NCBI RefSeq assembly: GCF_030678875.1 | Contig: NZ_JAUUDS010000001.1 | Span: forward strand, 434,001-498,000 | Source of the DNA: Sphingomonas aurea | Lineage (GTDB): Bacteria > Pseudomonadota > Alphaproteobacteria > Sphingomonadales > Sphingomonadaceae | Direction: 5' to 3' | Length of the DNA: 64,000 nucleotides | Part shown: positions 10,512 to 15,215 of the stretch, piece by piece | Layout: each line of letters begins with the position of its first letter | Position numbering within the stretch: the first letter of the stretch is position 1 | The notes under the pieces: model-generated | Database searches by the model: none | What the model saw: only the letters and a program-made list of their open reading frames with translations | What the model was told of the DNA's origin: nothing | Translations under genes and position numbers: made by a program

Positions 10512-10810
10512 CGAAGCGGGCGAAGAGCGAGTGGATCGGCGTGGTGCTGGTCTGCGCGAAATGTTCGAAAAAGGTTGGTGCCTGCTTCGGTCGCGATGGC
10601 GACGAGCCGCTCGCCAAGGCGCTGCGCCGCTACGCTGGCAAGGGACGCAAGGCGAAGGTCGGCGTGGTCGAGACACGCTGCCTGAAACTCTGTCCCAAGC
10701 GGGCGGTGACGGTGGTCGATGCACGCCGTCCGGCCGAATGGCTGGTGGTGGCACCCGGCGAGCCGATCGACGCGCTCGCCGAGCGGCTGGGGATCACGCC
10801 TCAGGCGTAA
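10508..10810 (+). CDS. Thioredoxin-like (2Fe-2S) ferredoxin domain protein
   Basis: A 100-residue protein starting at a GTG that overlaps the stop of the J-domain gene. Four cysteines are arranged as VCAKCSKKVGACFG and, after about 40 residues, RCLKLCPKRAV, which resembles the thioredoxin-fold 2Fe-2S ferredoxins. It may be an electron carrier or a cluster-binding accessory protein. Its 3' end overlaps the convergent sufE gene by ten bases, so an iron-sulfur theme is shared between the neighbours. Confidence 0.72.
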   Translation: MTKRAKSEWIGVVLVCAKCSKKVGACFGRDGDEPLAKALRRYAGKGRKAKVGVVETRCLKLCPKRAVTVVDARRPAEWLVVAPGEPIDALAERLGITPQA

Positions 10811-11208
10811 CGGGCGGCGGTCTCGCGGATCAGGGCGATCATGTTGGGAATGCCCTGCGTCCGGTTGGACGTGAGGTGCCGTTCAATCTCAAAGGGAGAT
10901 AGTTGGGCTTTGATATCGATGGCCAGAACGTCGCAGGGCGGCTGATCTTGGACGAGCTTAAGGATCAAGGCAATGATCCCTTTGGTTATGGCTGAATTGG
11001 AGTCCGCCTTAAAATGTAGAGTTCCGTCAGAGTTAACTGTCGGATATGCCCATACCTGCGAAAGGCAGCCTTTTACTTGAGTTCGCTCTGTTTTCAGAGC
11101 TTCTTCCATTGGCTCAAGCTCGCGGCCCAGGTCAATTATTAGCCGATAACGGTCATCTCGTTCATCGAGAAACTCGTAATCCTCGCGAATGTCGTTGAAG
11201 CTTTGCAT
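10801..11208 (-). CDS. sufE: Cysteine desulfurase sulfur acceptor SufE
   Basis: I use the ATG at 11208 (135 residues); an upstream ATG at 11244 adds a non-conserved leader. The sulfur-accepting cysteine is in VKGCLSQVW (Cys48), followed by the family pattern DSNSAITKGIIALI and HLTSNRTQGIPNM. SufE takes persulfide from SufS for Fe-S cluster assembly. The gene is clearly richer in A and T than its surroundings (for example 10990-11060 and 11090-11200), unlike the GC-rich codon use next to it. It stands alone on the minus strand, without other suf genes in the window. Confidence 0.88.
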   Translation of the reverse strand: MQSFNDIREDYEFLDERDDRYRLIIDLGRELEPMEEALKTERTQVKGCLSQVWAYPTVNSDGTLHFKADSNSAITKGIIALILKLVQDQPPCDVLAIDIKAQLSPFEIERHLTSNRTQGIPNMIALIRETAARYA

Positions 11209-11316: not shown

Positions 11317-11553
11317 TCAGAGGTCCACGCCCGCCGCGATCGCCTCCAGCTTGCGGATCCGCTCCTTCAGGTCGGCAATCTCGATGCGGGCGCCGGCCTG
11401 CGGCACCCCGACCGGGTCGACGCTGCGATCCATCTCGCTGCGCTTCAGCTGCAGCCAGCCGCGCCATCCGGCGAGGCCGCCTGCGACGACCATGCCCAAG
11501 CCGGCCAGGCCCGACAGCGACAGGGTAACGGTGGTGAAGGGATCGGGGGTCAT
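11317..11553 (-). CDS. Small membrane protein with C-terminal coiled coil, last gene of the extended psp operon
   Basis: A 78-residue protein with a hydrophobic segment at residues about 8-30 (TLSLSGLAGLGMVVAGGLAG) and a charged helix at the end (ADLKERIRKLEAIAAG). It has a strong ribosome site (AAGGAGG, seven to eight bases before ATG). The same layout, one membrane helix then a coiled coil with an R-x-x-x-LE-x-I core, is seen in PspB and the next three genes. I know no function. As the fifth such protein in a row it most likely joins the envelope-stress complex. Confidence 0.72.
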   Translation of the reverse strand: MTPDPFTTVTLSLSGLAGLGMVVAGGLAGWRGWLQLKRSEMDRSVDPVGVPQAGARIEIADLKERIRKLEAIAAGVDL

Positions 11554-11567
11554 CGGTCCGCCTCCTT

Positions 11568-11810
11568 TCAGCGGTCGCGCAGCCGCTCGATCTCGCGATC
11601 GAGCCCGAGGCTGCCGTGGTTGTCGGTGATGACGCGCTCCAGCACGGCGACGCGTTCCTTCAGTTGCCGGACCTCGTCCTGCGCGCGCATCGCGTCGGCG
11701 CTCTGGACGGCGTTGCCCTGGCTATGCGCCTTGGCGGTCAGATAGCGCGAGATGATCTTGCTGACCGAGACGATCAGGATGATCGCGACGACCATCGAAA
11801 AGGGATTCAT
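11568..11810 (-). CDS. PspB-like small membrane protein
   Basis: An 80-residue protein: membrane helix at residues about 4-20 (FSMVVAIILIVSVSKII), a short linker, then a coiled coil QLKERVAVLERVITD and the terminal REIERLR. The ribosome site GGGGAG lies about eight bases before the ATG. The coiled coil closely matches those of PspB (RLEDRLNTVERIV) and of the next gene upstream (RLEQRVRVLERIV). Spacing to neighbours is short (14 and 27 bases), in keeping with one transcript. Confidence 0.75.
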   Translation of the reverse strand: MNPFSMVVAIILIVSVSKIISRYLTAKAHSQGNAVQSADAMRAQDEVRQLKERVAVLERVITDNHGSLGLDREIERLRDR

Positions 11811-11837
11811 GTTATCCGCTCCCCAGATTGATGAGGT

Positions 11838-12122
11838 TCAGTTGATTTGTGGCGTCGCCGCAGGGCCGCGCAGCCGTTCGATTTCGTTGGACAGGTCGTG
11901 ACCCTTGTCGGTCACGATCCGCTCCAGCACCCGCACCCGCTGCTCCAGCCGCTCGGTCTGGGCGGCATATTGCGCCGCCTTTTCCGCCGTCTGCGCCGTC
12001 AGGGCGTCGGCCATCGTCTCTTTGTGCTTCAGCCACCGCTTGAAGGCGTCGCCGCCGACCCCGACGATCACCGGCAAGCCGACGACGATCAGGAAGAAGC
12101 TGAGTATGAACCAGGCGTCCAT
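11838..12122 (-). CDS. PspB-like small membrane protein
   Basis: A 94-residue protein with a strongly hydrophobic N-terminus (AWFILSFFLIVVGLPVIVGVGG; compare PspB FIFVGLPWIIL), a Lys/Arg-rich turn (KRWLKHKE) and a coiled coil (TERLEQRVRVLERIVTD) ending in NEIERLR. This is the clearest PspB resemblance in the group: the membrane part shares the VGLP motif as well as the coiled coil. It is preceded by GAGGG. Function unknown; a second PspB in the stress complex is a reasonable inference. Confidence 0.77.
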   Translation of the reverse strand: MDAWFILSFFLIVVGLPVIVGVGGDAFKRWLKHKETMADALTAQTAEKAAQYAAQTERLEQRVRVLERIVTDKGHDLSNEIERLRGPAATPQIN

Positions 12123-12148
12123 GATCGCGATCCCTCAGAACAGTGGGT

Positions 12149-12439
12149 TCAGCGCAGCGCGTCGATGGCGCGGGCGGTGCGTTCGGCGGGGTCGGTGGCG
12201 ATGCGTTCCAGGACCGCGATCCGCTCCTCCAGCCGGCTCACCTGGCCGTTCAGCTTGTCGTTCTCCGCGGTCAGCAGCTGCATCTTGCGACTGTCGTCGA
12301 TCCGGCCGCTGCCGTCGGTCGTGCCCCAGTCGTTGGTCGGCGCGTAGCCGTGCTTGGCGCGGATCCAGTTGTTGATGATCCAACCGCCGGTCGACATCGC
12401 GATGATCGCGAGGACGAAGAAAGGTCCACCCCATTCCAT
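12149..12439 (-). CDS. PspB-like small membrane protein with longer coiled coil
   Basis: A 96-residue protein from the ATG at 12439 (GGGAG upstream). The membrane helix spans residues about 5-25 (GPFFVLAIIAMSTGGWIIN). A polar linker with Gly, Asn and Asp follows, then a helix starting MQLLTAENDKLNGQV and the shared core RLEERIAVLERIATD, ending in AIDALR. The end of the protein copies that of PspC (NEIDALR), encoded just upstream. Gap to pspC is 31 bases. Confidence 0.75.
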   Translation of the reverse strand: MEWGGPFFVLAIIAMSTGGWIINNWIRAKHGYAPTNDWGTTDGSGRIDDSRKMQLLTAENDKLNGQVSRLEERIAVLERIATDPAERTARAIDALR

Positions 12440-12470
12440 TGCGATAACTCCCCTGTGATGCCGTTGCGCC

Positions 12471-12848
12471 TCAGCGCAGCGCGTCGATCTCGTTGGCCAG
12501 CTGTGTGTTGCGGCTGGTGAAATGGGTTTCCATGTCGGCCAGGCGCCGGTCGATGTCGCGCAGCTTGCTGCGCACCTCGGCACTGGACCGCTTGGGATTG
12601 GAGCGGACGCCCTGCCAGAACTTGGCATCGTCCTGCGTCTCATAGAGGCCGACCGGCTTGGGATCGACGATCCACGCGACGACCATATAGGCCACCACCA
12701 GCCACCATTGCTGGGCGATCACGGTCATGCCCGTGATGCCGAGCCGGACCCAGAGGACGTCGATGCCGGTATAGTCGGCGATCCCGGCGCAGACGCCCTT
12801 CCACTTGGCGTCCTGCTTGTTCAGGTAGAATTGGGTACGGGCGGCCAT
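12471..12848 (-). CDS. pspC: Phage-shock protein C (PspC domain) with C-terminal coiled coil
   Basis: The ATG at 12848 sits one base after the pspB stop, giving 125 residues; an ATG at 12866 inside pspB is less likely. The PspC domain is at the N-terminus: KWKGVCAGIADYTGIDVLWVRL, then a membrane segment (ITGMTVIAQQWWLVVAYMVVAWIV). The C-terminal third is a predicted coiled coil (KLRDIDRRLADMETHF) ending in NEIDALR, the same type of tail as in the small downstream proteins. PspC with PspB senses inner-membrane stress and binds PspA. Confidence 0.9.
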   Translation of the reverse strand: MAARTQFYLNKQDAKWKGVCAGIADYTGIDVLWVRLGITGMTVIAQQWWLVVAYMVVAWIVDPKPVGLYETQDDAKFWQGVRSNPKRSSAEVRSKLRDIDRRLADMETHFTSRNTQLANEIDALR

Positions 12849-12849
12849 C

Positions 12850-13161
12850 TCAGTTGCTCCGGTCAAGGTTGCGGTCGAGGCGATATTGCGGCTGGTCCTG
12901 CGGGGCGTTCAGCCCGGGCTTCCAGTTGGGCCCAGGGGTGCCAAGCCCCGGCTTCCAGTCGGGATTGTCGGCGGCGACGATGCGCTCGACGGTGTTCAGG
13001 CGATCCTCCAGGCGGCGGGCGAGATTGTACATCTCATCGAGCATCCGCTCGTCCTCCTCGGTGATCTTCGGCGCCCGCTTCCACTGCGAGACATAGTGGA
13101 GGATGATCCAGGGCAGGCCGACGAAGATGAAGCCGCACACAAAGACGGTGGTCAGGTCCAT
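12850..13161 (-). CDS. pspB: Phage-shock protein B (PspB)
   Basis: A 103-residue protein with a membrane helix (VFVCGFIFVGLPWIILHYV) and the PspB coiled coil (LARRLEDRLNTVERIVAADNPDW). The C-terminus is extended by a Pro/Gly/Trp-containing tail with two similar units (DWKPGLGTPG and NWKPGLNAPQ). It lies two bases from pspA, with GGAGGG before the ATG. PspB works with PspC in the inner membrane to relieve PspA inhibition of PspF. Confidence 0.93.
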   Translation of the reverse strand: MDLTTVFVCGFIFVGLPWIILHYVSQWKRAPKITEEDERMLDEMYNLARRLEDRLNTVERIVAADNPDWKPGLGTPGPNWKPGLNAPQDQPQYRLDRNLDRSN

Positions 13162-13162
13162 G

Positions 13163-13831
13163 TCAGCCCTCCGTCTTGTTCAGGCGCGCCTTCAGCGCGG
13201 CCAGTTCGGCATCCACCCGGTCGCTCTGGCGCAGCTCGGCAATCTCGTCCTCCAGGCTCTTGGTCACACCCAGGCCCATCGCCTCGGCGCGTCCCTCCGC
13301 CTCGTCGGCGCGGCGCTCCAGCTCGCCGAAGCGGCTGAACGCCTCCTGCGTCTTCGGCCCGGCATACATGTCGCGCAGGCGATAGCGGTTGTTGGCGCTC
13401 TCCAGACGGGTCTGGATCGACGACTGCTTGTTGCGCGCCTCGCGCAGGCGACCCTGCAGCTTGGCGATGTCCTCTTCCGACGCGCGCAGCGCATCGTCGA
13501 GCACCTGGATCTCGGCCTTTAGCTGGTCGGCCATGTCGGTCGCCTTCTGGCGCTCGACCAGGGCCGCCTTGGCCAGGTCCTCGCGGTCCTTGGACAGGGC
13601 CAGTTCCGCCTTCTCGGTCCAGTTCGCCTGAAGCTGTTCCAGCTTCGTGATGTGGCGGCGCATTTCCTTCTGGTCGGCGATGGTGCGGGCCGCAGAGGCG
13701 CGAACCTCGACCAGCGTTTCCTCCATCTCGAGGATAATCATCCGGATCATCTTGGCCGGGTCTTCCGCCTTGTCGAGCAGGTCGGCGAAATTGGCGGCGA
13801 CGATGTCGCGGGTTCGGCTGAAGATTCCCAT
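13163..13831 (-). CDS. pspA: Phage-shock protein A (PspA/IM30 family)
   Basis: The start at 13831 (222 residues) is set by AGGAG six bases upstream and by the conserved MGIFSRTRDIVAANFADLLDKAEDP N-terminus; an ATG three bases earlier is also possible. The rest is an almost continuous coiled coil, as in all ESCRT-III-like PspA proteins. PspA coats and stabilises damaged membrane and inhibits the activator PspF. It is followed by pspB, pspC and four small membrane genes on the same strand. Confidence 0.95.
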   Translation of the reverse strand: MGIFSRTRDIVAANFADLLDKAEDPAKMIRMIILEMEETLVEVRASAARTIADQKEMRRHITKLEQLQANWTEKAELALSKDREDLAKAALVERQKATDMADQLKAEIQVLDDALRASEEDIAKLQGRLREARNKQSSIQTRLESANNRYRLRDMYAGPKTQEAFSRFGELERRADEAEGRAEAMGLGVTKSLEDEIAELRQSDRVDAELAALKARLNKTEG

Positions 13832-13868
13832 CATGAACTCCTGAGGGGCGGAAATGGCATTCATCGGC

Positions 13869-14012
13869 TTATGCCATGAAGCGGGTGGTGCTGGCGACAG
13901 CGCCGTTGCCACCGTGCGCGGTCGCCGGGCCGACCGCGCTGACGATCAGCGTGGCGCTGGTCACGACGGTCAGGGCGAGGGCGGCGAGCTTGCGGGCGAA
14001 ATCGTTGAACAT
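13869..14012 (-). CDS. 47-residue small protein, first ORF of the psp transcript
   Basis: An ORF of 47 codons between the sigma54-type promoter and pspA. It starts MFNDFARKLAALALTVV, continues as one hydrophobic helix (to about residue 30, ending VGPATAHG) and ends in a short polar tail. GGAGG lies five bases before the ATG, which is one of the best ribosome sites in the region. The pattern could be a single-pass membrane peptide or a signal peptide with a tiny mature part (cleavage near ATA-HGG). No function known. Confidence 0.65.
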   Translation of the reverse strand: MFNDFARKLAALALTVVTSATLIVSAVGPATAHGGNGAVASTTRFMA

Positions 14013-14064
14013 GGGGTCCTCCGTGATGCTGTGTGTGTCCGCCGAGGCGGTATGCCGACAGCAT

Positions 14065-14080
14065 TGCAGGTGGCGTGCCA
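14065..14080 (-). promoter_or_regulatory. Sigma54-type (-24/-12) promoter of the psp operon
   Basis: On the minus strand the bases read TGGCACG-CCAC-CTGCA, matching the sigma54 consensus TGGCACG-N4-TTGCA at all but one position. The expected start of transcription is near 14054, about 42 bases before the 47-residue ORF and in front of pspA. The divergent pspF encodes a sigma54 activator, which fits exactly. Confidence 0.87.
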
Positions 14081-14180: not shown

Positions 14181-15215
14181 ATGGAACGGACTAGCCAGGT
14201 GATCGGCCAGTCGGGGGCGTTCCTCGATGCCCTCGAACGCGCCAGCCGTGCGGCGGCACTCGACCGTCCCGTGCTCGTCATCGGCGAGCGGGGGACGGGC
14301 AAGGAACTCGTGGCCGAGCGGCTCCACCGCCTGAGCCCACGCTGGGATCAGCCGCTGGTCGTGATGAACTGCGCCGCGCTGCCCGAGACGCTGATCGAGG
14401 CCGAGCTGTTCGGGCACGAGGCGGGCGCCTTCACCGGCGCAACCAAGGCGCGGACGGGGCGGTTCGAGGAGGCGGACGGCGGTACGTTGTTTCTCGACGA
14501 GCTGGGCACCCTGTCGATGGGCGCGCAGGAGCGGCTGCTGCGCGCGGTCGAATATGGCGAGATCACCCGGATCGGCTCGTCGCGGCCGGTGCGGGTCGAT
14601 GTCCGCATCGTCGCTGCCACCAACGAGCATCTGCCCGACAAGGTCGACGCGCACGAATTCCGCGCCGACCTACTCGACCGGCTGTCGTTCGAGGTCGTGA
14701 CGCTGCCACCGTTGCGCAGCCGCGCCGGCGATATCCACGTCCTGGCGGATCATTTCGGGCGACGGATGGCGGCCGAACTGGGACGCGAGCGCTGGCTGGG
14801 CTTCGGTCCCGCGGCAGTCGAGCAGCTGACCCGCTATCGCTGGCCCGGCAATGTCCGCGAACTGCGGAACGTCGTCGAGCGCGCGGTCTATCGCTGGGAG
14901 GAGCGGGGGGCGATCGACCATATCGAGATCGATCCGTTCGCCTCACCCTATCGCCCGCAGACCCGCGCCGCTGCCCGGCCAGAGGCGCCCGCGGCGGCTC
15001 CGCCACCCGTGACGGACGACGAGGAAGTGACCGCGTGCGAGGTCGGCCCGTCCGACTTCAAGTCGCGCGTCGCCGCCTTCGAGCGCGACCTGCTCGCCCG
15101 CAGCCTGGCCGAGCATCGCTTCAACCAGCGCCAGACCGCCGAGGCGCTCGGCCTGTCCTACGACCAGCTGCGCCACGCCTTGCGGCGACACGATCTCATC
15201 GGAACGGTTGCGTAA
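14181..15215 (+). CDS. pspF: Psp operon transcriptional activator PspF (sigma54-dependent AAA+)
   Basis: I use the ATG at 14181 (344 residues); a TTG at 14145 is an in-frame alternative. There is no N-terminal sensory domain, as usual for PspF. The AAA+ core begins at once, with Walker A GERGTGKE (residues 35-42), the sigma54-contact loop GAFTGA (82-87), Walker B GGTLFLDEL and RYRWPGNVRELRN. A Pro/Ala-rich linker leads to a Fis-type helix-turn-helix (NQRQTAEALGLSYDQLRHAL). It drives the divergent psp operon and is held inactive by PspA. Confidence 0.94.
   Translation: MERTSQVIGQSGAFLDALERASRAAALDRPVLVIGERGTGKELVAERLHRLSPRWDQPLVVMNCAALPETLIEAELFGHEAGAFTGATKARTGRFEEADGGTLFLDELGTLSMGAQERLLRAVEYGEITRIGSSRPVRVDVRIVAATNEHLPDKVDAHEFRADLLDRLSFEVVTLPPLRSRAGDIHVLADHFGRRMAAELGRERWLGFGPAAVEQLTRYRWPGNVRELRNVVERAVYRWEERGAIDHIEIDPFASPYRPQTRAAARPEAPAAAPPPVTDDEEVTACEVGPSDFKSRVAAFERDLLARSLAEHRFNQRQTAEALGLSYDQLRHALRRHDLIGTVA

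Follow-up and report, generated by a model that had tools for sequence, protein, structure and literature searches.

Introduction

The conversion of membrane damage into release of the activator PspF by PspB and PspC has been argued mainly from work in enterobacteria. In the sections of that literature considered here, an Escherichia coli PspC fragment made up of a membrane helix and the C-terminal tail (PspC40-119) interacts with PspA by itself and, at strong overexpression, switches psp on in the absence of PspB; the PspC leucine zipper is required for the contact with PspA (PMC3068692); the scheme in that paper places the tail in the periplasm, a contradiction that the paper acknowledges. 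For Yersinia, the C-terminal cytoplasmic domain of PspC is described as binding PspA in the on state, whereupon PspF is released (PMC5596341). Ravi et al. 2024 report, in the parts of their study relevant here, that PspB duplicates occur in the psp operon, with AOL22920.1 as an example, and that PspC may end in a divergent PspB domain (PMC11237479). Here we analyse a psp operon of Sphingomonas aurea that carries four additional small genes, p3 to p6, behind pspC. It lies in what we call the window, the whole stretch of 64,000 nucleotides under analysis (assembly GCF_030678875.1, contig NZ_JAUUDS010000001.1, positions 434,001 to 498,000).

A preliminary description of this locus had read the four genes as the outcome of repeated pspB duplication, with products that could form mixed coiled-coil assemblies around PspA and PspC and perhaps tune stress detection. 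The comparisons reported below retain the extended operon and revise the origin of its parts: p3 to p6 extend the PspF/sigma-54-controlled psp operon in a way that is specific to the family and variable in copy number, and the predicted proteins of three of the four gene types share the coiled-coil core of PspB and end in a tail of the PspC type.

A Variable Gene Array in the psp Operon

Gene order on the minus strand is p0, pspA, pspB, pspC, p3, p4, p5 and p6 (11317-14080), and the reading frames, sizes and order of the small genes are as first described, with pspC sitting between pspB and the other four. The three named genes all score above the cut-offs of their models: pspA (13163-13834) with 272 bits for TIGR02977, pspB (12850-13161), which encodes a true PspB of 103 residues, with 85 bits for PF06667 and 81 bits for TIGR02976, and pspC (12471-12848), whose product has a C-terminal coiled-coil tail, with 118 bits for TIGR02978. 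The genes p3 (12149-12439, 96 residues), p4 (11838-12122, 94 residues) and p5 (11568-11810, 80 residues), all on the same strand, fall into the clusters C3, C4 and C5 of the survey below and each encode a membrane helix, a coiled coil and a PspC-type tail; the p5 product aligns over its full length with the standalone relatives discussed later. The last gene of the array, p6 (11317-11553, minus strand, 78 residues, cluster C6), encodes a membrane helix and a conserved C-terminus. The ribosome sites and short gaps already noted at this locus are borne out, with ATG starts and Shine-Dalgarno-like matches for all four genes (the start chooser favours such matches) and gaps of 31, 26, 27 and 14 base pairs (bp) in front of p3, p4, p5 and p6. 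Comparison of the window with three near relatives gives a ratio of nonsynonymous to synonymous polymorphism (pN/pS) of 0.25-0.77 for each of the six genes from pspB to p6.

The gene-count survey of sphingomonad psp operons that had been called for reveals an array of uneven length. In these counts, family, order, class and phylum are those of the window organism (Sphingomonadaceae, Sphingomonadales, Alphaproteobacteria and Pseudomonadota). PspB scores above its cut-off in 137 of 149 genomes of the family; 100 loci were taken by hand from the positive genomes, about one per genus with some second genomes, and the window brings the total to 101. A single-sequence search found 416 extra genes in these loci, which form four clusters: C3, the p3 type, with 128 members in 80 loci; C4, the p4 type, with 101 in 75; C5, the p5 type, with 97 in 92 (15 of them first scored as p3 or p4); and C6, the p6 type, with 90 in 90 loci, in every one of which it is the final gene. 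With family models, an operon holds between 0 and 8 extras with a median of 4, and the numbers of loci with 0, 1, 2, 3, 4, 5, 6, 7 and 8 extras are 1, 4, 7, 15, 34, 25, 9, 5 and 1. The number varies even inside one genus, since four more genomes of the genus of the window (L157-L160) carry 6, 5, 4 and 4. The family models gave no match on the strand opposite pspB in 141 loci.

Outside the family the picture is different. No extra PspB-like or C-type gene lies behind pspC in 31 of 36 psp loci from elsewhere (22 from other families of the order and 14 from elsewhere in the class), the exceptions being L147, L153, L155, L156 and L161. C6 matches of 90 bits or more were limited to the family itself (34 genomes in an order search of 118, 12 in a phylum search of 299), and all others in these searches reached at most 27 bits; in both searches scoring was limited to the top candidates from a first look at each genome (up to 47 and 18, respectively), so that absences are not absolute. 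In named genomes, 79 of 80 loci bearing C6, the best 80 of at least 521, reach PspB, mostly under Sphingomonas or Sphingobium titles, and among the matches listed Sphingomonas rubra (L261) has the same arrangement as the window. Two records carry the titles Microvirga sp. SRT01 (L262) and Arthrobacter sp. TPD3018 (L278); they are probably mislabelled sphingomonads, because their C6 proteins are 79% and 68% identical to that of the window.

The array lies behind one strong shared promoter and is conserved across the family, both in support of the earlier proposal of an extended psp operon. In the window, a sigma-54 (-24/-12) type site, TGGCACG-N4-(C)TGC with one mismatch to TGGCACGNNNNTTGC, lies at 14066-14080 on the minus strand, and a divergent pspF-like activator gene, recognised by its open reading frame and by divergent relatives in other loci, occupies 14181-15215 on the plus strand, its start codon being inferred. 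Among 105 family loci (the 101 and the four further loci of the same genus), a pspF relative is divergent in all 105 and a sigma-54 site, one mismatch being allowed, stands upstream of pspA in 94, while the 176,743 bp from the end of pspB to the end of the array hold no such site; this zero is itself the control at the one-mismatch setting, in place of a shuffle. That setting was chosen because a scan allowing three mismatches was not specific, finding 104 of the 105 loci where about 35 were expected by chance. Divergent pspF, a promoter at the head and no strong internal sigma-54 site together match the layout of a PspF/sigma-54 psp regulon. Tight packing accompanies it: 387 of the 415 extras with a called start begin at most 60 bp from the preceding gene, and 99 of the 415 overlap it by 1 or 4 bp. 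Between 11000 and 14300 of the window we found no sigma-70-like promoter and no minus-strand terminator, a result that is little informative given shuffle averages of 0.5 and 2.6.

PspB-Like Bodies and PspC-Type Tails

Pfam and NCBIfam matches do not by themselves settle what the extra proteins are. Against a PspB cut-off of 25.6 bits, p4 reaches 18.6 and p5 17.9; p3 and p6 have no Pfam PspB match and no useful Pfam or NCBIfam match, and the first Pfam match of p4 is an unrelated peptidase model with a score similar to that of PspB. On the source genome, with E up to 10, the Pfam PspB model finds three places, namely pspB, p4 and p5, and none elsewhere. None of p3 to p6 matches PF04024 or has the PspC core domain with two membrane segments, and a search of PDB sequences with PspB or C4 found nothing better than weak similarity to unrelated proteins, most of them coiled coils.

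Comparison of profiles with hhalign is more telling. The C3, C4 and C5 profiles match one another with scores of 92-120 and, judged by sequence, are one family, whereas unrelated membrane-anchored coiled-coil controls (DivIC/FtsB, LapA and AtpB) reach at most 30.2 against C3-C6. The PspC profile scores 54, 42 and 36 with C3, C5 and C4, and the PspB profile scores 39.5 with C3 and 37.6 with C4, above the controls; the value of 28.5 for PspB with C5 lies inside the control range and is not taken as evidence, because AtpB and DivIC reach 30.2 and 28.9. C6 scores 41 with C5, 39 with C4 and only 26 with C3.

A second test used PspB and PspC-tail models trained on the 36 outgroup loci only, with a threshold of 10 bits; none of the 79 control proteins and none of the 324 shuffles scored higher. 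The PspB model passes this threshold with 91 of 101 C4, 49 of 126 C3 and 51 of 97 C5 proteins, and the PspC-tail model with 66, 89 and 26 of the same sets; some caution is due with the latter counts, as that model also gives more than 10 bits to 18 of 101 true PspB proteins (the PspB model does so for 0 of 104 PspC). No C6 protein passes with either model (0 of 90 each). The similarity to PspB beyond a generic coiled coil that had been implied for all four proteins thus stands for C3 and C4 on both tests and for C5 on the outgroup model, and falls away for C6 and p6, which sequence comparison ties to PspB and PspC solely through C4 and C5.

Short motifs make the ends of the C3-C5 proteins easier to place than their bodies, with the proviso that all patterns were written after seeing the sequences and that the juxtamembrane and DE..L motifs were derived from the family's own PspB. 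The PspB motifs GLPW..HY, HYxT.W/K and DE..L occur in 82, 98 and 84 of 101 PspB proteins, and each is found in 0 of 412 extras. The coiled-coil core motifs quoted in the preliminary description are present, as is the VGLP that it saw in both p4 and PspB, although the VGLP of p4 is not the GLPW..HY motif of PspB. A PspC-type tail is found with a stricter pattern in 92 of 124 C3, 46 of 101 C4, 59 of 97 C5 and 95 of 103 PspC proteins, in 0 of 101 PspB and in 0 of 90 C6, and with a looser one in 118 of 126 C3, 97 of 101 C4, 76 of 97 C5, 60 of 104 PspC, 1 of 101 PspB and 12 of 90 C6; the looser pattern undercounts PspC and the stricter one undercounts C4. In the same vein, the PspC profile aligns to its last residue with C3 (54.7) and with A4, a profile of C5 and standalone proteins (40.6), where PspB aligns only as far as the E-R-I core.

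The 15 residues that follow the helix hold more lysine and arginine than those ahead of it in 122 of 124 C3, 101 of 101 C4, 97 of 97 C5 and 90 of 90 C6 proteins. The extras are small single-pass proteins whose N-terminus is out and C-terminus in by the positive-inside rule, so that the coiled coil is probably cytoplasmic. An AlphaFold model of p4 is a single long helix (residues 3-85, mean predicted local distance difference test score, pLDDT, 83). The C-terminus of p6 and its relatives is strongly conserved (ARIEIADLKERIRKLEAIAxGVDL) and could be a binding peptide.

Origin and Standalone Relatives

Repeated duplication of pspB, giving mixed PspB-type sensors, is the explanation first given for this locus, and several observations speak for it. 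Size, topology and coiled-coil core are the same as in PspB, and the profile scores of PspB with C3 and C4 exceed those of the controls; five genomes of the family have a second gene close to pspB that scores over the Pfam PspB cut-off (26-33 bits), with one more borderline; true second PspB genes exist in other lineages (L147 and L161); and Ravi et al. 2024 report PspB duplicates in psp operons (PMC11237479). The tree argues otherwise. All 32 sampled PspB rows, from the family and from outgroups, form one 100/100 clade with none of the 69 sampled C3-C5 rows inside, and within it the PspB of the family forms a 99/98 clade; the tree holds 151 rows, nine outgroup PspB among them, and 90 columns, leaves C6 out, did not reach a settled bootstrap, and does not order C3, C4, C5 and the standalone proteins. 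The exclusion of the sampled extras from the 100/100 clade therefore makes it unlikely that they arose from the family's own pspB. With the PspB motifs missing from all extras, with tails of the PspC type and with standalone proteins as the nearest relatives outside the operon, we regard repeated duplication into PspB-type sensors as very improbable.

These relatives indicate by their sequences that C3-C5 belong to a separate family, most of whose other members stand alone in other Proteobacteria. Standalone proteins match the C3-C5 models at about 40-73 bits (the second genes in L350 and L353 at about 25), and A4, built from nine standalone and five array C5 rows, scores 112.9 with C4. Searched through the phylum with up to 14 candidates scored per genome, A4 matched 46 of 398 genomes at E 1e-6 or better, of which 19 belong to the family, 2 to the order, 4 to the class and 21 to the rest of the phylum. 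The loci outside psp operons are L343-L351, L353, L354, L358, L360, L365, L367, L369-L371, L375, L377-L379 and L381, and in four of them (L345, L350, L353 and L381) the genes are tandem pairs. Seven neighbourhoods inspected by eye show no common partner; L343 and L351, whose genomes are related, have neighbours in common. With standalone relatives as queries, two plasmid records were found, one a Pseudoalteromonas plasmid gene labelled hypothetical protein; a plasmid search with p4 gave no match.

How the Array May Work

The comparison also brought up natural variants of the locus. In genome G040 (L374) the operon consists of a p0-like open reading frame, pspA, pspC, one C4 and one C5, the last two directly behind pspC; there is no pspB at the locus and none over the cut-off in the genome, and PspC stops before its tail. 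Three genomes of one genus (L340-L342) have a pspA-pspC-C6 operon without pspB, which in two of them, G077 and G145, is separate from the locus that holds pspB. Three loci of a neighbouring bacterial family place a tail-less second PspC ahead of a C5-like gene. Tail-less PspC copies of 62-64 residues lie between pspB and the full pspC in L037, L053 and L113, which are loci of the window's own family, and in L161 one extra ends in a PspC-type tail and another in a PspB-type tail. Of the 12 family genomes without PspB over the cut-off, 10 are without C6 and 11 without PspA over the cut-off, a pattern of joint loss. The arrangement in G040 and the pspA-pspC-C6 operon suggest free-standing subunits that resemble the PspC tail.

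We put at somewhat under an even chance the reading that p3 to p6 are extra PspA-docking subunits or partners of PspC and PspB, a reading drawn for p3-p5 from their having the architecture of E. coli PspC40-119 as separate proteins. On induction of the operon, the extras would act as free-standing PspC-tail-like (and PspB-like) subunits, pairing through their coiled coils with PspB and PspC and providing additional membrane-anchored docking sites for PspA; docking would draw PspA off PspF and keep it at the membrane, and differing membrane anchors may confer differing sensitivities. The part of C6 would be that of a specialised partner, touching PspA or PspC with its conserved C-terminus. The mixed assemblies and tuned stress detection of the preliminary description remain plausible, if putative. 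Taken as a whole, the array suggests a stress sensor of many interchangeable parts in which the extras resemble detached PspC signalling tails.

Two other roles have to be weighed. The extras might be buffers or silencers that imitate PspB and, by binding to the tail of PspC, keep the sensor in its off state, with copy number raising the induction threshold. Their PspB-like body would suit this, as would the title of a Yersinia paper cited in PMC5596341, according to which cytoplasmic contacts between PspB and PspC silence the response; yet the extras lack the juxtamembrane motifs of PspB and carry the tail of the PspA-binding partner, and G040 has them in an operon where pspB is absent and PspC has no tail that they could silence, which leaves this role unlikely. 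They might instead be effectors, small helical membrane proteins that stabilise or organise the membrane under stress independently of contacts with PspA and PspC. That would fit genes that follow the regulators in a stress operon, vary in number, are diverse in their membrane helices and have standalone relatives without psp neighbours, but the best-conserved columns are found chiefly in the coiled coil and tail and less in the membrane helix, and the association with pspA-pspC recurs in operons without pspB; we judge the effector role distinctly improbable.

The docking-subunit reading has its own difficulties. In E. coli, low-level PspC40-119 failed to restore stress signalling, which only full-length PspC did (PMC3068692, as far as the sections considered here go). 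The PspB model outscores the PspC-tail model in 65 of 101 C4 and 65 of 97 C5 proteins and C3 favours the PspC tail in 79 of 126, so that the body of the extras is, by sequence, ambiguous between the two; the profiles of the family's PspB and PspC score just 24.6 with each other, not above the control range. C6 has no directly detectable similarity to PspB or PspC with hhalign or the outgroup models. The AlphaFold model of pspC shows the tail helices 89-113 and 115-124 at low confidence. One of the 101 family loci has no extra gene at all, and two fragmented genomes (120 and 360 contigs) have C6 with neither PspB nor PspA over the cut-off. Near the standalone relatives, no psp gene occurs at any of 21 distinct loci outside the family (nine viewed with about 3 kilobases (kb) on each side and twelve more, among a further 14 loci, with about 1.5 kb), so that the standalone family may lack a link to PspA in some bacteria.

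Only tentatively would we extend the docking-subunit reading to the array as a modular, copy-number-tunable PspA receptor, in which PspC-tail modules on interchangeable anchors could replace PspB and the PspC tail, recruited from an unnamed proteobacterial family whose standalone members may be orphan regulators of PspA or of membrane stress.

Neighbouring Genes

Between promoter and pspA lies p0 (13869-14012, minus strand), an open reading frame of 47 codons with a hydrophobic, signal-like N-terminus, taken from the list of open reading frames. Small frames like it, with a hydrophobic stretch and a Shine-Dalgarno match, occupy the corresponding place in 70 of 94 loci, and the Zymomonas gene ahead of pspA (ZMO1062) is called pspD in the relevant sections of two papers. 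Behind the array, sufE (10801-11208, minus strand) has counterparts within 1.2 kb in 93 of the 105 family loci. Stress induction of pspA, pspB and pspC is reported in the sections of the Zymomonas papers considered here; these accounts name ZMO1061-1065 only, and one gives ZMO1065 as PspC and ZMO1067 as SufE, leaving one gene number between.

Comparison with Known Systems

Among the open-licence papers listed for psp operons of sphingomonads, for paralogs of PspB and for PspB-like proteins, none on this array came up, and the parts of Ravi et al. 2024 considered here, unlike the present survey, give no account of an array of up to eight genes, a PspC-type tail, four families or standalone relatives (PMC11237479). 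Operons in which as many as eight separate proteins bear a PspC-type tail, together with one genome that lacks PspB and the PspC tail, amount to natural constructs that could separate the sensing parts of the system from its PspA-binding parts. The finding also draws attention to an unnamed family of small proteins in other Proteobacteria.

That standalone family, of about 70-100 residues, is like the array in matching the C3-C5 models and in having the same PspC-type tail, and differs in that no psp gene lies within 1.5-3 kb on either side at 21 of 21 loci. With PspB (PF06667/TIGR02976) the extras have in common a single N-terminal membrane helix, a C-terminus that is cytoplasmic by charge, the operon itself and the coiled-coil core R-L-x-x-R-h-x-x-h-E-R-I; unlike PspB, p3 to p6 stay below the cut-offs, lack GLPW..HY, HYxT.W/K and DE..L and, in the window, the P-x-W-R/K end, and C3-C5 fall outside the PspB clade. 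PspC (TIGR02978) differs in its core domain, which p3 to p6 do not have, each bringing an N-terminal membrane helix of its own. The likeness lies in the C-terminal half of PspC, where C3 aligns with columns 46-127, a span that starts in the last membrane segment and takes in the final residue, and where both share the tail ...T-(D/S)....L..E-I..L-R.

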